A stretch of DNA of 64,000 nucleotides from assembly GCF_900167005.1 (NCBI RefSeq), contig NZ_FUXW01000001.1:744001-808000 (forward strand), given 5' to 3'. The translations under genes and the position numbers were made by a program. The notes under the pieces were generated by a model that searched no databases, had not been told where the DNA came from, and worked only from the letters and a program-made list of their open reading frames with translations. This document shows, in pieces, positions 38,105 through 64,000 of this stretch. Positions within the stretch are counted from its first letter, which is position 1, and each line of letters starts with the position of its first letter. Origin of the DNA: Butyricicoccus pullicaecorum DSM 23266 (GTDB lineage Bacteria > Bacillota > Clostridia > Oscillospirales > Butyricicoccaceae).

Positions 38105-38323
38105 TTAGACGGCAAACAGGCCGGAAAGCAGAGGTACGAGGATCAGGCCGACCACAGCCACACCAGCGCCCGCCATGAGCTGCTTCATACCCTGGCTCTT
38201 TGCACCAGGGTTGTCGTTTCCGTAACCTTCCAGCAGGTTGATAACGCCCCATACGCCAAGACCAGCACCAAGGGCAATCACGAGGGTCTGCAACACATTG
38301 ATCGCTTCATTGAAAAATTCCAT
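38105..38323 (-). CDS. Maff2 family membrane protein
   Basis: 72 residues with two hydrophobic helices (VLQTLVIALGAGLGVWGVINLL and LMAGAGVAVVGLILVPLLSGLF) around GYGNDNPGAKSQGMKQ, the Maff2 signature. It resembles VirB2-type pilin subunits in size and topology. Preceded by a long leader with a hairpin. A truncated homologue lies at 53283-53423. Confidence 0.9.
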   Translation of the reverse strand: MEFFNEAINVLQTLVIALGAGLGVWGVINLLEGYGNDNPGAKSQGMKQLMAGAGVAVVGLILVPLLSGLFAV

Positions 38324-41782: not shown

Positions 41783-41807
41783 AAAAAAGACGGCCTTACC
41801 AGCCGCC
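41783..41807 (-). terminator. Terminator at the end of DUF6017 gene
   Basis: Minus-strand GGCGGCT-ggtaa-GGCCGTC (two G-U pairs) followed by TTTTTT. It overlaps the last codons of the gene. Confidence 0.65.
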
Positions 41808-42674
41808 TGCGTTCATATCATGATTAACCTGTGAAGTGTAGTGGTTGCTGATGGTGGTGGGTGCGTTAAACAGCACCGTCAGCAGGTACTGCTTCATGTT
41901 GCGGACCTCGGTGGTGTTTTTCTGCAAGCTGTCCATGACAAACCGGATATGTTCGCTGTCCAGCTTCAAAAAACGGGAGCGCACCACCTCATGGGGGAAG
42001 TCGCTGCCTGCAATCCGGGTGGTTTTGCGTCTGGCACAGACGGTTTCCACCATCAGCTCCACGATCTCGTCCAAATCCTCCCGATAGGTGGCAAACTCCC
42101 TGCACAGGTAGTCATACTCGATGTTCTCTAAAATCAAATCCCGATAACTTTCTATCTCGGAGACAGACATCGCATCCCTTCCTTTCCGTTCCGGCGGTCT
42201 TGCCGCCGTTTTCTCCCGGAAGGGAATGGAATCGGTACTTGATCCATGAGTAATTGATTTTTGAGTATTTGATTTCTCTATATTTAATTCTGCGGGCTTT
42301 TCCGTATCCGGTTTGTCCATATCCGGTTTTCCCGTATCTGGTGAAGCCGTATCCGGCTGTGGCGTATCCGGGTTCTTCGGCTGTGGCTGTTCGTAGATGA
42401 CATACTCGGTATCACTGATCCGACCCTGCCTATCTCGTAGCTGATGACGGACAATGTACCCGGCAGTTTCCAGCTCCCGCAGCGCGCCGCCGATAGCGTC
42501 CACGCCCTCTTTGCAGATGGCGGCAAGCCCTCTGGTGGTATAGTTCCAGTCCTCCGGTAAGGACAGCATCATGGAAAGCAGCCCCTTGGCTTTCAGGGAC
42601 AGTTTCCCGTTGCGTAAATGGTGATTGCTCATTACGGTATAATCTCTGGTTCGTTCAATGCGAAATACGGCCAT
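41796..42674 (-). CDS. DUF6017 / winged-helix replication-type protein
   Basis: 292 residues. The N-terminal winged helix (MAVFRIERTRDYTVMSNHHL, KAKGLLSMMLSLPEDWNYTTRGLAAIC) resembles RepA/DnaD-like initiators. A linker of about five six-residue Pro-Asp repeats (PDTPQ, PDTAS, PDTGK, PDMDK, PDTEK) follows, then a C-terminal DUF6017 domain (YDYLCREFATYREDLDEIVELMVETV). Start at 42674 has AAGGAG. It may initiate ICE replication. Preceded by a terminator hairpin. Confidence 0.85.
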   Translation of the reverse strand: MAVFRIERTRDYTVMSNHHLRNGKLSLKAKGLLSMMLSLPEDWNYTTRGLAAICKEGVDAIGGALRELETAGYIVRHQLRDRQGRISDTEYVIYEQPQPKNPDTPQPDTASPDTGKPDMDKPDTEKPAELNIEKSNTQKSITHGSSTDSIPFREKTAARPPERKGRDAMSVSEIESYRDLILENIEYDYLCREFATYREDLDEIVELMVETVCARRKTTRIAGSDFPHEVVRSRFLKLDSEHIRFVMDSLQKNTTEVRNMKQYLLTVLFNAPTTISNHYTSQVNHDMNAGGW

Positions 42675-42706
42675 TGACCTCACTCCTTCCAAATTTCTCA
42701 GGATAT

Positions 42707-52208: not shown

Positions 52209-52250
52209 CTTCTTTTTGAATTTGATGAAAAAGTCCTTGACTTTTCGTCT

Positions 52251-53065
52251 CTGGCAAAACGGCAAAATCCATCCTGATTTCCTGTGGTGCGCGCCTTGCC
52301 GTATTCGACATTGCGGAGCTGCGGGAGGTCACTTCCTACGATGAGTTGGAACTGGATACCCTGGGAGATCGCCGGACTGCATTGTTCCTCATTATGAGCG
52401 ATACGGATGATAGCTTTAACTTCCTAATCTCCATGTGCTACACCCAGCTTTTCAATTTGCTCTGCGAAAAGGCTGACGATGTGTATGGCGGTCGGCTGCC
52501 GGTCCATGTGCGCTGCCTTATTGACGAGTGTGCCAACATCGGTCAGATACCCCGGTTGGAAAAGCTGGTTGCCACCATCCGAAGCCGTGAGATCTCCGCC
52601 TGTTTGGTCTTGCAGGCACAGTCCCAGCTGAAAGCCATCTACAAGGACAACGCCGATACCATCATCGGCAACATGGATACCTCTATCTTCCTGGGCGGCA
52701 AGGAGCCGACCACCCTCAAGGAGTTGGCCGCCGTACTGGGCAAGGAGACCATCGACACCTACAACACCGGTGAGAGCCGTGGGCGGGAAACTTCCCACTC
52801 GCTCAACTATCAAAAATTGGGGAAAGAGCTGATGAGTCAGGACGAGCTGGCTGTTATGGACGGCGGCAAGTGCATCCTCCAGCTGCGCGGTGTGCGGCCT
52901 TTCCTTTCGGATAAGTACGACATCACCAAGCACCCCAATTTCAAATACACAGCCGACGCAGACGAAAAGAACGCTTTTGACATTGAAGCGTTCCTGTCCA
53001 CCCGGCTGAAACTCAAGCCCAATGAGGTCTACGATGTGTACGAAGTAGACGCAGAGGGCGCTTAA
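52251..53065 (+). pseudogene. 3' fragment of a second virD4 gene
   Basis: From GGCAAAACGGCAAAATCC onward the frame encodes GKTAKSILISCGARLAVFDI and the remaining about 270 residues of VirD4 to its natural stop, nearly identical to the ICE A protein. The Walker A half and N-terminus are absent, so it is inactive. It starts directly after the tnpW-like gene of module B, marking a recombination joint. Confidence 0.88.
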
Positions 53066-53282: not shown

Positions 53283-53423
53283 ATGGAATTTTTTACTCAG
53301 GCTATCACTGTTCTGAAAACTCTCGTTATCGCTCTGGGCGCTGGTCTCGGCATCTGGGGTGTCATCAACCTGCTGGAAGGTTACGGCAATGACAACCCCG
53401 GCGCGAATGCTCATGTACGGTAA
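53283..53423 (+). pseudogene. Truncated maff2
   Basis: 46 codons: Maff2 N-terminus MEFFTQAITVLKTLVIALGA through GYGNDNPGAN, then an unrelated AHVR and stop. The second helix is missing. The break at about 53409 marks the join between the ICE remnant and the tet(W) region. Confidence 0.85.
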
Positions 53424-54063: not shown

Positions 54064-55983
54064 ATGAAAATAATCAATATTGGAATTCTTGCCCATGTAG
54101 ACGCTGGAAAGACGACCTTGACGGAGAGCCTGCTATATGCCAGCGGAGCCATTTCAGAACCGGGGAGCGTCGAAAAAGGGACAACGAGGACGGACACCAT
54201 GTTTTTGGAGCGGCAGCGTGGGATTACCATTCAAGCGGCAGTCACTTCCTTCCAGTGGCACAGATGTAAAGTTAACATTGTGGATACGCCCGGCCACATG
54301 GATTTTTTGGCGGAGGTGTACCGCTCTTTGGCTGTTTTAGATGGGGCCATCTTGGTGATCTCCGCTAAAGATGGCGTGCAGGCCCAGACCCGTATTCTGT
54401 TCCATGCCCTGCGGAAAATGAACATTCCCACCGTTATCTTTATCAACAAGATCGACCAGGCTGGCGTTGATTTGCAGAGCGTGGTTCAGTCTGTTCGGGA
54501 TAAGCTCTCCGCCGATATTATCATCAAGCAGACGGTGTCGCTGTCCCCGGAAATAGTCCTGGAGGAAAATACCGACATAGAAGCATGGGATGCGGTCATC
54601 GAAAATAACGATGAATTATTGGAAAAGTATATCGCAGGAGAACCAATCAGCCGGGAAAAACTTGCGCGGGAGGAACAGCAGCGGGTTCAAGACGCCTCCC
54701 TGTTCCCAGTCTATCATGGCAGCGCCAAAAATGGCCTTGGCATTCAACCGTTGATGGATGCGGTGACAGGGCTGTTCCAACCGATTGGGGAACAGGGGGG
54801 CGCCGCCCTATGCGGCAGCGTTTTCAAGGTTGAGTACACCGATTGCGGCCAGCGGCGTGTCTATCTACGGTTATACAGCGGAACGCTGCGCCTGCGGGAT
54901 ACGGTGGCCCTGGCCGGGAGAGAAAAGCTGAAAATCACAGAGATGCGTATTCCATCCAAAGGGGAAATTGTTCGGACAGACACCGCTTATCAGGGTGAAA
55001 TTGTTATCCTTCCCAGCGACAGCGTGAGGTTAAACGATGTATTAGGGGACCAAACCCGGCTCCCTCGTAAAAGGTGGCGCGAGGACCCCCTCCCCATGCT
55101 GCGGACGACGATTGCGCCGAAAACGGCAGCGCAAAGAGAACGGCTGCTGGACGCTCTTACGCAACTTGCGGATACTGACCCGCTTTTGCGTTGCGAAGTG
55201 GATTCCATCACCCATGAGATCATTCTTTCTTTTTTGGGCCGGGTGCAGTTGGAGGTTGTTTCCGCTTTGCTGTCGGAAAAATACAAGCTTGAAACAGTGG
55301 TAAAGGAACCCTCCGTCATTTATATGGAGCGGCCGCTCAAAGCAGCCAGCCACACCATCCATATCGAGGTGCCGCCCAACCCGTTTTGGGCATCCATAGG
55401 ACTGTCTGTTACACCACTCTCGCTTGGCTCCGGTGTACAATACGAGAGCCGGGTTTCGCTGGGATACTTGAACCAGAGTTTTCAAAACGCTGTCAGGGAT
55501 GGTATCCGTTACGGGCTGGAGCAGGGCTTGTTCGGCTGGAACGTAACGGACTGTAAGATTTGCTTTGAATACGGGCTTTATTACAGTCCGGTCAGCACGC
55601 CGGCGGACTTCCGCTCATTGGCCCCGATTGTATTGGAACAGGCATTGAAGGAATCGGGGACGCAGCTGCTGGAACCTTATCTCTCCTTCATCCTCTATGC
55701 GCCCCAGGAATACCTTTCCAGGGCTTATCATGATGCACCGAAATACTGTGCCACCATCGAAACGGCCCAGGTAAAAAAGGATGAAGTTGTCTTTACTGGC
55801 GAGATTCCCGCCCGCTGTATACAGGCATACCGTACTGATCTGGCCTTTTACACCAACGGGCGGAGCGTATGCCTTACAGAGCTGAAAGGATATCAGGCCG
55901 CTGTCGGTCAGCCGGTCATCCAGCCCCGCCGTCCAAACAGCCGCCTGGACAAGGTGCGCCATATGTTTCAGAAGGTAATGTAA
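54064..55983 (+). CDS. tet(W): Tetracycline resistance ribosomal protection protein Tet(W)
   Basis: 639 residues, the Tet(W) length, and the sequence agrees with Tet(W) as I recall it. EF-G-like GTPase: G1 AHVDAGKTT (residues 10-18), G3 DTPGH, G4 NKIDQAG. Domains II to V follow, with the C-terminal loop region that displaces tetracycline from the ribosome. Complete and intact. Control by the leader peptide and attenuator upstream. Exact allele or mosaic status needs alignment. Confidence 0.95.
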
Positions 55984-58193: not shown

Positions 58194-58595
58194 ATGACAC
58201 GCAAGACCTACAACACCCCCAAGCGGAAATGTGTTGTCAAAACCCGGCTTACCGAGGACGAGCGTAGAGCCTTTGAGGACAAATGCGCCGCCCTCTCCAT
58301 GAGCCAGTCCGAGTATATCCGGCAAGCCGTTTTTTACAGCCGGATTTCCCCTGTTATCCGGGTGACTGCTCACAGCGAGGAAATGCTCACCGCCGTATCT
58401 TCCCTTGTGGCGCAGTACGGGAAAATCGGAAGCAACCTAAACCAGATCGCCCGGTATCTGAACGAATACGGCGCACCTTACAATGCCCTGTCCGGCGAAG
58501 TGAGAACCGCCGTTTCCGACCTTGCCGCCCTCAAATTCGAGGTGCTGAAAGTGATAGGTGAAGCCTATGGCAACGATCAAGCATATCAGCTCTAA
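58194..58595 (+). CDS. mobC: MobC relaxosome protein
   Basis: 133 residues with a ribbon-helix-helix N-terminus (KCVVKTRLTEDERRAFEDKC, MSQSEYIRQAVF) and the MobC motif GKIGSNLNQIARYLNEYG. AAAGGAG precedes the start. Overlaps the relaxase gene by about 29 bases. It should bind the oriT region just upstream. Confidence 0.9.
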   Translation: MTRKTYNTPKRKCVVKTRLTEDERRAFEDKCAALSMSQSEYIRQAVFYSRISPVIRVTAHSEEMLTAVSSLVAQYGKIGSNLNQIARYLNEYGAPYNALSGEVRTAVSDLAALKFEVLKVIGEAYGNDQAYQL

Positions 58596-60180
58596 AAATG
58601 CCGACTACGCAGCCGCCGAAGCCTATCTGACCTTTGAGCATGACGAGTTTACCATGAAGCCCACCCTTGACGAAGCCGGGCGGCTCATTCCCCGGCAGGA
58701 CTACCGGCTGGACACATTGAACTGCGGGGACGAAGATTTTGCCCTGTCATGTATCCGGGCAAATCTGCGGTACGGCAAGAACAGCAAACGGGAGGACATC
58801 AAGAGCCACCACTATATCATCAGCTTTGACCCACGGGACGCAGCCGACAATGTCCTGACCGTAGACCAGGCGCAGGCGTTGGGGCTGGCCTACTGCAAAG
58901 AGCATTTTCCCGGACACCAAGCCCTTGTCTGCACCCACCCGGACGGACACAACCACAGCAGCAATATCCATGTGCATATTGTCATCAACAGTCTGCGGAT
59001 TGCCGAGGTGGAGCGCAAGCCCTACATGGACAGGGCCAGCGACACCAGAGCCGGGGACAAACACCGCTGCACCGCCGCAGCCATGCGGTATTTCCGCAGC
59101 GAAGTCATGGAGATGTGCCACCGGGAGGGGCTTTACCAGATCGACCTCTTGAACGGCAGCAAGAACAAAGTGACCGAGCGTGAATACTGGGCGAAGCGCA
59201 AAGGGCAAGCCAAGTTGGACAAGGAGAACGCTGCCCTGCTTGCCGAGGGTATCACACCCCGACAGACCAAGTTTGAAACTGACAAAGACCATCTGCGGCA
59301 GACCATACGCAAAGCCCTTTCCACCGCCGTCAGCTTTGACGAGTTTGCCACGCTCCTGCTGCGGGAGGGCGTGACCGTCAAGGAGAGCCGGGGGCGGCTG
59401 TCCTATCTCACACCGGACAGAACGAAACCCATCACCGCTCGGAAGCTGGGGACGGACTTCGACAAAGCCGCTGTCCTTGCTGTTTTCCAGCAGAACGCCC
59501 TACACAGGCCGGAAAAGGGTGTCGTGAAGCACAACCCCCATGCCCCGACACAGGGCGCAGGGTACGGACGAAAACCCGTCCAAATCACCCCCAATCCCGA
59601 CAGCCCGCAGCGGCTTGTGGATATAGCAGCCAAACGAGCCGAGGGAAAAGGCATCGGCTACGAGCGTTGGGCGAAAACCTTTAACCTCAAGCAGATGGCA
59701 AAGACCATGAATTTTCTTTCCGAGCATGGCTTTACCAGCCCCGAAGAAGTGGACGCAGCCCTTGAAGCCGCTATTTCCGGGCAGCACGCCGCCGGGGAAA
59801 AGCTGAAAGAACTGGAATCCAGAATTACCGCCAACAAGGAACTCATGCACCAGATCGGCGTTTACCGCAGAACCAAGCCCACCCATGACGGGCTGAAAAC
59901 CGCCAAGAAGCCAGAACGATACCGGGAAGCGTTTCATGCAGACCTGACGCTGTATGAAGCGGCGGTTCGGTATTTTCGAGAACGGGGCTTGAAGAAGCTG
60001 CCCGCCACTTCCAGACTGCAAGCGGAAAATGAAGCCCTGATTTCCGAGAAAAACGGGCGTTACACCGAATACCGGGAGCAGAAAGCCAGAGCCGCCGAGC
60101 TGCAAAAGGTCAAATCCAACCTTGCCGCCATGCTCCGGCAGGAACGGACAAAAGAGATGCGCCGGGATTGGGAGCGGTAA
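58567..60180 (+). CDS. MOBP-type relaxase
   Basis: 537 residues: N-terminal MATIKHISSKNADYAAAEAY, KSHHYIISFDP, and the metal motif HPDGHNHSSNIHVHIVIN near residues 124-141. The C-terminal coiled coil resembles that of the ICE A relaxase, with GIGYERWAKTFNLKQMAKTM in common. ATG at 58567 preferred to one nine bases earlier because related proteins begin MATIK. It starts transfer of element D. Confidence 0.92.
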   Translation: MATIKHISSKNADYAAAEAYLTFEHDEFTMKPTLDEAGRLIPRQDYRLDTLNCGDEDFALSCIRANLRYGKNSKREDIKSHHYIISFDPRDAADNVLTVDQAQALGLAYCKEHFPGHQALVCTHPDGHNHSSNIHVHIVINSLRIAEVERKPYMDRASDTRAGDKHRCTAAAMRYFRSEVMEMCHREGLYQIDLLNGSKNKVTEREYWAKRKGQAKLDKENAALLAEGITPRQTKFETDKDHLRQTIRKALSTAVSFDEFATLLLREGVTVKESRGRLSYLTPDRTKPITARKLGTDFDKAAVLAVFQQNALHRPEKGVVKHNPHAPTQGAGYGRKPVQITPNPDSPQRLVDIAAKRAEGKGIGYERWAKTFNLKQMAKTMNFLSEHGFTSPEEVDAALEAAISGQHAAGEKLKELESRITANKELMHQIGVYRRTKPTHDGLKTAKKPERYREAFHADLTLYEAAVRYFRERGLKKLPATSRLQAENEALISEKNGRYTEYREQKARAAELQKVKSNLAAMLRQERTKEMRRDWER

Positions 60181-60446: not shown

Positions 60447-60617
60447 ATGCCGAGAATGAGCAAGAAGCGCAAGGAAGAATGGGCGTTCTTTCTCAACGAG
60501 CGCAACCGTATCACCTACAACCCCCTTTGCCGCAAGTGCCGCCGCACCTGCAAGCAGAGTTTCCGGGCTATCATCATCGAGTGCCCGCCGTTTCGCTCCA
60601 AGCGGGCGAAGCCATGA
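60447..60617 (+). CDS. Small basic cysteine-containing protein
   Basis: 56 residues, very basic, with CRKCRRTCKQSFRAIIIEC that could bind zinc or nucleic acid. AGAAAGGAG precedes the start, and the stop overlaps the rep start (ATGA), which supports real coupling. Family not recognised. Confidence 0.72.
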   Translation: MPRMSKKRKEEWAFFLNERNRITYNPLCRKCRRTCKQSFRAIIIECPPFRSKRAKP

Positions 60618-61375
60618 AGCCGGACAACACGCAGGAAACCATTTATGTAGGGCTGGACACCGGCTTGCCGCCCTACCTGCCATATCCCCGGTTCCTGCTG
60701 AAAATGGACATTTCCCAGACCGCCAAGCTGCTCTATGCGCTGCTGTTAGACCGCACCACCCTGTCACAGCGGAACGGCTGGCAGGACGATCAGGGCAGCA
60801 CATTCATTGTCTATCCCATAGCGGAGATTGCCGAAATGCTGGATAAGGGGCAGACCGCCATTAAAGCCGCCTTGAACGAACTGGACGCAGCCGGACTTCT
60901 GGAACGGAAACGGGCGGGATTTTCCGCAGCCAACCGCTTGTATGTGAAGCTGCCGCCATTAGTACGGATTTCCGACCCTATGACAGTCGGAAAAGCGACC
61001 CTCATAAGTGCGGAAAACCGACCTACTGATGGTCGGAAAAGCGACCTTATGACGGTCGGAAAACCGACCCCTAACAACCTTACTATAAACAACCTGATAG
61101 AAAACCAAACAATGGGAGTGAGTGGAGAGCCGCACAAACCGTTTGGCAGATATGAGAATGTTTTTCTGACCGAAGCCGAGTATGACCAGTTGCAGGCAGA
61201 ATACCCGGACAGACTGGAACGGTTCATCGAGGAAATGAGCCGCTACCTTGCCGCCAACGGGAGAACCTACCAGAACTATGCCGCCGCCCTGCGGATCTGG
61301 GCGGAGAACGACAAAAAGGACGCCCCGAAACAGGGCGTCCCGGACTACACCTGCAAGGAGGGAGAAAGTTTATGA
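60614..61375 (+). CDS. Replication initiator (RepA_N/DnaD-like winged helix)
   Basis: 253 residues. The N-terminal winged helix (YPRFLLKMDISQTAKLLYALLLDR, VYPIAEIAEMLDKGQTAIKAALNELDAAGLLERKR) resembles RepA_N-type initiators. A middle segment with repeated MTVGK is encoded by the iterons, and the C-terminal domain has YDQLQAEYPDRLERFIEEMSRYLA. It likely initiates replication at repeats inside its own gene. Coupled to the DnaC-like gene by an overlap. Confidence 0.82.
   Translation: MKPDNTQETIYVGLDTGLPPYLPYPRFLLKMDISQTAKLLYALLLDRTTLSQRNGWQDDQGSTFIVYPIAEIAEMLDKGQTAIKAALNELDAAGLLERKRAGFSAANRLYVKLPPLVRISDPMTVGKATLISAENRPTDGRKSDLMTVGKPTPNNLTINNLIENQTMGVSGEPHKPFGRYENVFLTEAEYDQLQAEYPDRLERFIEEMSRYLAANGRTYQNYAAALRIWAENDKKDAPKQGVPDYTCKEGESL
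60962..61076 (+). repeat. Five 23-bp iterons within rep (putative origin)
   Basis: Units begin at 60962, 60985, 61008, 61031 and 61054, exactly 23 bp apart. The core is GGTCGGAAAA(G/C)CGACC, itself an inverted repeat. Since 23 is not a multiple of three, the units fall in all reading frames, so DNA binding rather than protein sequence keeps them. This matches origins located inside initiator genes. Confidence 0.75.
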
Positions 61376-62205
61376 ACAAAATCGAGAATATCAATCTGCT
61401 GCCGGATACCGAGCCGGACAGCGGTGACTACACAGGCGAGGACGGTTTGCTGTACTGCGGAAAATGCCGCAAGCCCAAAGAAGCCTATTTCCCGGAGGGC
61501 AAGACGCTTTTCGGACTTGACCGCCACCCGGCAGAGTGCGACTGCCAGAGGGCGCAGCGGATTGAGCGTGAAGCCGCCGAACAGCAGCGCAGACACCTTG
61601 ACACCGTAGAGAACTTGAAACGCCGGGGATTTTCCGATACCGCCATGCGGGACTGGACATTTGAAAACGACAACGGCAGGAACCCGCAGACTGCTGTTGC
61701 CCGGTTCTATGCGGAGCATTGGGACACCATGCAGGCCGAGAACATCGGCTATCTCTTTTGGGGCGGTGTGGGAACTGGAAAAAGCTACCTTGCGGGCTGT
61801 ATCGCAAACGCCCTGATGGAGAACGAAATCCCCGTCCGCATGACGAATTTTGCCGCAATCCTCAATGACTTTGCCGCCAGCTTCGAGGGCAGGAACGAGT
61901 ACATCTCCCGGCTCTGCCGCTATCCGCTGCTGATTTTGGACGATTTCGGCATGGAGCGTGGAACAGAATACGGGCTGGAACAGGTTTACAGCGTCATTGA
62001 CAGCCGATACCGCAGCCGCAGGCCGCTGATCGTTACCACCAACCTGACCTTGCAGCAAATCCAGAACCCGCCGGACACCGCCCATGCCCGTATCTATGAC
62101 CGGCTGCTGGAAATGTGCGCCCCCGTCCGTTTTACGGGCGGCAATTTCCGCAGAGAAACCGCACAGGCCAAGCTGGAACGGCTGAAAAATCTGATGAATG
62201 AGTGA
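61372..62205 (+). CDS. DnaC/IstB-like helicase loader ATPase
   Basis: 277 residues. The N-terminal cysteine cluster (YCGKCRKPK, ECDCQRAQ) is followed by an AAA+ ATPase with Walker A GGVGTGKS near residue 130 and Walker B LLILDDF near 188, then VTTNLTLQQIQN (sensor I). It would load the host replicative helicase at the rep origin. Follows rep with a four-base overlap. Confidence 0.9.
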   Translation: MNKIENINLLPDTEPDSGDYTGEDGLLYCGKCRKPKEAYFPEGKTLFGLDRHPAECDCQRAQRIEREAAEQQRRHLDTVENLKRRGFSDTAMRDWTFENDNGRNPQTAVARFYAEHWDTMQAENIGYLFWGGVGTGKSYLAGCIANALMENEIPVRMTNFAAILNDFAASFEGRNEYISRLCRYPLLILDDFGMERGTEYGLEQVYSVIDSRYRSRRPLIVTTNLTLQQIQNPPDTAHARIYDRLLEMCAPVRFTGGNFRRETAQAKLERLKNLMNE

Positions 62206-62217
62206 AAGGAGTAGCCT

Positions 62218-62403
62218 ATGGCAGATAACAAGCAGATCACCCGAACCAATTCCCGCCGCCCCGACTGCGTAACGGAAATCCGCATGGGCAACTCTGTCCT
62301 TGTGGTGTCCGGCTTTTTCAAGCAGGGCAGCAACGAAACCGCCGCCGACAAAATGGCAAAGGTATTGCAGGCCGAAGCTGCTACACAAAAACCGGCGATA
62401 TGA
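62218..62403 (+). CDS. tnpW: TnpW family protein
   Basis: 61 residues (TEIRMGNSVLVVSGFFKQGS, ETAADKMAKVLQAEA), the TnpW family. GAAAGGAG precedes the start. Last gene of the rep operon. Function unknown. Confidence 0.85.
   Translation: MADNKQITRTNSRRPDCVTEIRMGNSVLVVSGFFKQGSNETAADKMAKVLQAEAATQKPAI

Positions 62404-62907: not shown

Positions 62908-64000
<1,093 letters not shown>

Follow-up and report, generated by a model that had tools for sequence, protein, structure and literature searches.

We analysed a 64,000-nucleotide stretch of the Butyricicoccus pullicaecorum DSM 23266 genome (contig NZ_FUXW01000001.1, positions 744,001 to 808,000; hereafter the window, in whose numbering positions are given) and found five 23-bp units within the rep gene of an integrated mobile element, here called element D. 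The units are dyads around an A-tract, the DNA of the array is constrained beyond the protein it encodes, an A+T-rich stretch adjoins it, and the gene product is homologous to RepA_N initiators. The same architecture was found in most relatives. From these features it is quite probable that the array is a RepA_N theta origin made of iterons, located inside the gene of its own initiator. It likely represents a further RepA_N-type replicon, in a family of integrative and mobilizable elements (IMEs) carrying tetracycline resistance, IME_Rho_tet.

The 23-bp array in rep

The gene, its array and the adjacent stretch are located as follows.

60614..61375, + strand: rep, RepA_N initiator of 253 amino acids, intact (PF06970; 4pta, 4pql, 5kbj, 4pt7)
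60962..61076, + strand: array of five 23-bp units (candidate iterons), from repeat alignment, Tandem Repeats Finder (TRF) and shuffles
60962..60977, + strand: dyad 1, degenerate, GTACGGATTTCCGACC
60985..61000, + strand: dyad 2, AGTCGGAAAAGCGACC
61008..61023, + strand: dyad 3, GTGCGGAAAACCGACC
61031..61046, + strand: dyad 4, GGTCGGAAAAGCGACC
61054..61069, + strand: dyad 5, perfect, GGTCGGAAAACCGACC
61072..61112, + strand: A+T-rich stretch, candidate DNA-unwinding element, top A+T 40-mer of the rep open reading frame (ORF)

The centres of the five dyads (60969.5 to 61061.5) are exactly 23 bp apart. The best unit reads GGTCGG-AAAA-CCGACC, and the units are separated by spacers such as TTATGAC. 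Four copies aligned at spacings of 23, 23 and 23, the three besides the reference copy matching it at 69, 79 and 90% identity, and a fifth, degenerate dyad, CGGATTTCCG, was found one unit upstream. Once this dyad is counted, the five units and the span of 60962-61076 (5 x 23) proposed in a first-pass annotation hold. The periodicity had also been called exact, which applies to the spacing but not to the copies, as these differ. TRF placed the array at 60972-61070 with 4.3 copies and a score of 108, the top among its 18 rows for the window. As 23 bp cannot be divided into whole codons, the successive units lie in different frames (0, 2, 1, 0, 2), and the array thus runs through all frames, as had been described. 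Direct repeats with inverted sub-repeats that converge on an A-tract define RepA_N replicons in the passages used from PMC7145576, and this arrangement is present here. The array covers residues ~116-154 of 253 and is therefore central in rep, as is the origin of the staphylococcal plasmid pSK41.

To obtain shuffled controls, synonymous codons were permuted while the protein and the codon supply were kept. The period-23 score of rep was 26.5 and was reached by none of 1000 such shuffles (best 17.5, mean 9.0). Of the window ORFs with 200 codons or more, 29 in all with rep included, only two scored at least 14.5, namely rep and 41796-42692 (period 15). The latter, on the minus strand, is a second replication-type gene with HTH_36 and DUF6017 domains, and since its 15-bp repeat is in frame it is possibly just a peptide repeat (PDTxx). 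With one mismatch allowed, GTCGGAAAANCGACC occurred three times in the window, each time within the array, against 0.04 expected. Across the 3.27-Mb genome the sequence GGTCGGAAAANCGACC has three occurrences; two of them are within the array, and no close direct repeats were detected in the 3-kb stretch around the third.

It is extremely improbable that selection on the peptide MTVGK generates the DNA repeat. Two copies of this peptide are indeed encoded 23 residues apart (residues 123 and 146), so the 69-bp distance noted in the first-pass annotation is correct, but the peptide occurs only these two times and not every 69 bases. Such a protein-level repeat is contradicted by the use of three frames, by the loss of periodicity in shuffles that preserve the protein, and by the amino acids of the array being the least conserved ones of Rep.

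Codon conservation and the A+T-rich stretch

The last point was obtained from a codon alignment of 17 reps of ~60-100% identity, with the window included, L001 and L021 left out and the partial L084 kept. The mean amino-acid identity to the window was 0.79 in the N-terminal part, 0.61 in the array (the lowest), 0.70 in the stretch following it and 0.65 in the C-terminal part. The corresponding synonymous-codon identities were 0.71, 0.90 (the highest), 0.89 (residues 155-170) and 0.66; as the 17 sequences are related, these pairwise means are descriptive. In the comparison of the window with L003, identical residues had the same codon in 24 of 25 cases within the array compared to 112 of 152 outside (Fisher p 0.008), and four further rep pairs gave p values of 0.002 to 0.010. 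The DNA-level constraint that had been claimed earlier is well supported by this codon conservation, by the protein-preserving shuffles and by the arrays in relatives.

Theta origins are usually built as iterons beside an A+T-rich stretch. The most A+T-rich 40-mer of the rep ORF (70% versus 44% for the ORF) begins at the 3' edge of the array, one base before its end as called by script. In 14 of 17 arrays, several of them close relatives, the A+T maximum was located at most 15 bp from the 3' edge, the exceptions being L078, L083 and L116. The 17 arrays, which also served for the dyad analysis below, were taken from 45, with the dyad centres and some of the first units entered by hand. Left out were close duplicates and also arrays with the best centre not on the A-tract (e.g. 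L069, L082, L103).

The Rep protein consists of an N-terminal domain (~31-119), the array-encoded linker (116-154) and a C-terminal domain (~171-253). RepA_N (PF06970) was matched at residues 32-90 with 55.2 bits (cut-off 30), and by sequence the N-terminal part also matched the solved RepA_N domains 4pta (E 5.4e-13), 5kbj (E 2.4e-9), 4pql and 4pt7. According to its structure title, 5kbj is a Rep-DNA complex.

Arrays and dyads in related reps

We collected 79 distinct ORFs, of which 44 were full-length (alignment spanning residues 35 to 225 of Rep); the 35 partial ones were excluded. An internal array was found in 37 of the 44, the window included, with period 23 in 36 and period 22 in one, and for each of them none of 100 shuffles reached the observed score. 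After clustering at 80% protein identity 13 of 19 clusters carried an array, and at 70% 10 of 15. Among 20 extra regions, a period-23 array with a score of at least 13, here taken without shuffles, was present in ten (L156, L159-L161, L165, L169, L171-L173, L175). Six plasmid loci were fetched as a yardstick. All four staphylococcal reps, one of them annotated with ~162 residues, had 23-bp arrays that none of 100 shuffles reached. The Enterococcus faecium plasmid locus L128 showed a weak period 24, scored without shuffles, and no array was detected in L129, a short protein of ~131 residues.

The letters of the dyads vary from lineage to lineage, the two arms changing in step, at a constant period. 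Besides the GGTCGG/CCGACC arms of the window type, we found TAAAG-AAAA-CTTTA (L067, L083), GGACAG-AAAA-CTGTCC (L096, L086), GAAGTC-CA-GACTTC (L116) and ACAATTC-TT-GAATTGT (L025, a partial match from the window's own genome that is outside the 44). These paired changes would also fit selection on RNA, and GGUCGG-AAAA-CCGACC could fold as a hairpin, so that the repeats might act in the rep mRNA on termination, attenuation or stability. We consider this very unlikely. In 56 distinct units the dyad arms pair at 247 of 336 positions, and among 41 G-T or A-C mismatches the RNA-tolerable G-T was the rarer one (12 versus 29; p 0.012, the units being non-independent), which argues against a hairpin since selection on RNA predicts the opposite. 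In addition, the strict 23-bp spacing across lineages suits an array bound by a protein on DNA better, and no Rfam family was found in the window at the gathering threshold.

The conservation among relatives also bears on whether the rep module is just the relic of an inherited plasmid replicon, the element being maintained by its relaxase (rolling circle in transfer) or by integration alone. Another role has been proposed for the short RepA_N proteins of streptococcal IMEs (PMC5357655), which is in favour of a relic. However, a relic would be expected to lose its dyads, whereas Rep, the neighbouring loader gene, the array and the A+T-rich stretch are all intact, the array is kept over ~60-100% protein identity, and codon conservation is raised where an origin is expected. 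A relic is thus distinctly unlikely.

The number of units was considered as well, since with a 23-bp period the reading frame could have locked the copy number to multiples of three. This was dropped, as arrays with 4, 5 and 7 copies occur and no clear rule was seen. Separately, L024 and L041 encode RepA_N-like proteins of ~130 residues in which no array or C-terminal domain was detected, and which resemble those of streptococcal IMEs.

Possible exchange of the DNA-binding domain and the dyads

Loci L029, L032, L042-L047 and L049 matched only the C-terminal domain of Rep, with 45-56% identity and no RepA_N match. In L032, the sole one of these that was scanned with Pfam, the N-terminal domain is Phage_rep_org_N. 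No 23-bp array was found in the five C-terminal-only reps examined (period-23 scores of 5 to 6). Instead, these five have GGACAAATGTCC or GGACATTTGTCC dyads at the position of the array, with a purine-rich tract of type AGAGATAGAG after them. It thus appears as if the N-terminal domain and the origin are exchanged as one cassette. The other dyads at the array position recall plasmid pPR9, for which the passages used from PMC5703833 report that a ~500-bp stretch with the pSK41 N-terminal domain and origin is replaced.

In the region of the recognition helix, K-G-x-T goes with CGG arms (the window type) and [K/R]-S-x-M with AAG or CAG arms; L093, which is ~41% identical to the window Rep in tblastn, has CGG arms and R-G-x-T. 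This pattern was spotted post hoc in few lineages, with the extra loci being mostly duplicates or fragments, and we regard it as a lead that the start of the recognition helix may read the inner arm of the dyad.

Proposed replication and search for excised circles

In the replication scheme that we propose, the winged-helix N-terminal domain of Rep would bind each dyad, presumably as a dimer, and the filled iterons would open the A+T-rich stretch that adjoins the array on its 3' side. The C-terminal domain, together with the DnaC-like loader encoded next to rep, would then recruit the host replicative helicase, and theta replication of the excised circle would start from the array. As the peptide encoded by the array would merely be a linker, its sequence could follow that of the DNA. 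While integrated, element D would be copied along with the chromosome; after excision by its serine recombinase, the origin would keep the circle from loss before transfer or re-integration. We infer these steps, as well as the copy number of the circle and the use of the origin after excision. An origin inside rep, as suggested in the first-pass annotation, is well supported by the comparative evidence and by the precedent of pSK41 (PMC5703833), and the autonomous replication of element D after excision that was suggested with it is a plausible and reasonable extension.

Several results weigh against an active origin of this kind. Neither 375 assemblies nor viral contigs yielded an excised-circle junction when scanned with a pattern that included no other end variants. 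This null result is weak, because no end variants were allowed and because, out of 394 assemblies from that order, no more than 25 had a strong Rep match (E 1e-25); most of the 375 assemblies probably do not carry element D. Among 72,556 plasmid records none covered 80% of the mob-rep-dnaC block (best 10%). Seven of the 44 full-length reps (L027, L087, L088, L089, L090, L091, L104) had no significant array of period 22 or 23. By eye, dyads 46 bp apart were seen in L087-L089, of which both are full in L087 but only one in L088 and L089, the other being degenerate. L027 has A-tract units in degenerate form. All seven were counted as misses despite these remnants in four. Many of the 44 are closely related. 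The short-period repeats of the C-terminal-only reps were unreached by 100 shuffles in four of five cases; beating shuffles alone is therefore not proof of iterons, as purine-rich repeats without RepA_N do so too. Finally, the predicted structure of Rep was poor (mean predicted local distance difference test score 48), and its fold matches to 4pt7, 4pql, 5kbj and 4pta had E values above 0.001, so that these predicted matches are at most in agreement with the sequence result.

No close Rep relatives were found in viral contigs. A 115-kb circular plasmid, pAPRE01 (L031, L122-L124), has Tn1549-like transfer genes and a RepA_N rep with a 23-bp array that closely resembles the rep arrays of L108-L115. 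As this plasmid also encodes a Phage_rep_org_N protein, a second candidate initiator, it is no proof of replication driven by the array.

Iteron arrays often serve as both operator or handcuffing site and origin. The array could accordingly be a site at which bound Rep limits rep expression or silences a second chromosomal origin, instead of being an active origin itself. An active origin in an integrated element could disturb the chromosome, which makes repression plausible, and no sign of extrachromosomal forms was seen in the plasmid records, the 375 assemblies and the viral contigs. On the other hand, the array is located mid-gene at ~350 bp from the start of rep, the A+T-rich stretch has codon conservation of its own beyond the array that an operator would not need, and the origin of pSK41 is at the same place (PMC5703833). 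Altogether, a purely regulatory array is unlikely, and we prefer the intragenic origin.

Relation to known replicons

The closest likeness is to the staphylococcal RepA_N theta plasmids of the pSK41 and pTZ2162 type, which share with the window the N-terminal domain, direct repeats with inverted sub-repeats around an A-tract, the 23-bp period (four reps), a variable linker, a separate C-terminal domain and, for pSK41, the central origin. In pSK41 the origin is central within rep, the N-terminal domain binds its four Rep boxes and the encoded linker is dispensable; a G+C-rich swap of the A+T-rich tract of a Rep box led to ten-fold weaker binding (passages used from PMC5703833). Unlike in these plasmids, the replicon in the window is integrated as part of an element that itself encodes a serine recombinase, a relaxase and a DnaC-like ATPase. 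Among the matches listed, moreover, the staphylococcal reps align to the window Rep over the N-terminal part and linker only and not over the C-terminal domain.

RepA_N genes on integrated elements are also known from the TnGBS, Tn5252 and Tn1549 families of integrative and conjugative elements (ICEs), and theta replication has been reported for TnGBS, as quoted in passages of PMC4701971 and PMC5704250. These elements differ from element D in being conjugative with their own type IV secretion system, and the passages used from both papers do not mention iterons. The RepA_N rep of pAPRE01 is next to VirD4, and close relatives in other assemblies share its 23-bp array. The PLE satellite of Vibrio cholerae resembles element D in being integrated and in having a large serine recombinase, a RepA_N initiator and iterons that contain inverted sub-repeats; one of the repeats binds RepA and is required for replication (passages used from PMC7145576). 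PLE is thus an example of an integrated element served by a RepA_N initiator with iterons. It differs in that its iterons are non-coding and a helper phage is needed for its replication (PMC7145576), and the element is unrelated. By title and abstract we recognised no paper describing iterons in IME rep genes, in a search that was mostly without subscription papers.

Element D and its insertion site

Element D is 11.3 kb long, with ends near 53405 and 64681 that are inverted and similar to each other; 21-bp terminal inverted repeats are described for IME_Rho_tet. Its features, apart from rep and the array, are listed here.

~53405 to ~64681, no strand: mobile element (element D), extending beyond the window end, from its ends and the interruption of maff2
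53283..53404, + strand: 5' part of maff2 of the host ICE, with the 3' part at about 64682-64773, outside the window
54064..55983, + strand: Tet(M/W/O/S)-family ribosomal protection protein (NF033148)
58194..58595, + strand: NikA/MobC-like relaxosome protein, from domain scan
58567..60180, + strand: relaxase (PF03432)
61372..62205, + strand: DnaC/IstB-like ATPase, probable helicase loader, with a 4-bp overlap with the end of rep
62218..62403, + strand: TnpW-like small protein (PF14202)
62965..64000, + strand: large serine recombinase, 542 amino acids, running on to 64593 beyond the window

A methyltransferase, a sigma-like protein and a helix-turn-helix protein are encoded as well. By blast comparison with regions from four other genomes, and by tblastn with genes of pAPRE01, element D was found to interrupt maff2 of a Tn1549-like ICE, with residues 1-44 of maff2 matched at 53283-53414 and residues 38-71 at 64672-64773, on either side of the element. 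The genes for the ribosomal protection protein, the relaxase and the serine recombinase are co-located in one orientation. The likeness to IME_Rho_tet, as given in the passages used from PMC12904643, includes a tet gene for a ribosomal protection protein, a methyltransferase, two putative regulators, mobC, the relaxase, the serine recombinase and the insertion into maff2. The 5' boundary is ~659 bp before the tet gene, compared to ~656 for 80% of the tet(W) elements, and the 3' boundary ~88 bp past the stop of the recombinase, compared to 81-90 (PMC12904643). Both the insertion in maff2 and the boundary distances are thus those of IME_Rho_tet, and the sequence fits an IME_Rho_tet-like tet element inside maff2 of a larger ICE.

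The description of IME_Rho_tet lists "four proteins of unclear function", and a word search of the main text of this 2026 paper gave zero occurrences of replicat-, iteron and RepA (PMC12904643). Two of these four proteins probably correspond to the window Rep and the product of the DnaC-like gene. According to the same source IME_Rho_tet play a key part in spreading tet(W) and tet(32) among gut bacteria and carry 71% of the tet(W) detected there (PMC12904643). In a review, the survival of excised IMEs through cell division was called an unexplored world (PMC5704250), and the role of chromosomal RepA_N genes is debated (PMC7145576; passages used of both). With a candidate origin pinned down to 115 bp, both questions can be put to direct tests. 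In addition, 23-bp dyads with an A+T-rich edge inside rep form a signature that might separate replication-competent RepA_N elements by sequence alone.

As a tentative joint reading, which we hold as possible yet somewhat doubtful, IME_Rho_tet would be conditional plasmids with a complete RepA_N replicon in one gene that fires only after excision. Across RepA_N elements the 23-bp rule would then hold, the DNA-binding domain and the dyad array would move as a cassette, and the start of the recognition helix would read the inner arm ([K/R]-G-x-T with CGG, [K/R]-S-x-M with CAG or AAG).

The host ICE itself appears to be disrupted. Before element D, VirD4 was matched in its C-terminal part only (52244-53038), and the VirB6-like gene at 64872-65504 ceases to match its relatives shortly past 65457. 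A second maff2, apparently intact, was found at 38123-38323 on the minus strand beside VirD4 and VirB6 genes and is an unoccupied candidate target for the recombinase of element D.

An identical 738-base stretch of rep was present in 18 loci (L003-L020) from many species and bins, and Bifidobacterium boum (L021) matched it as far as the end of its contig. This identity points to a very recent spread of the element.
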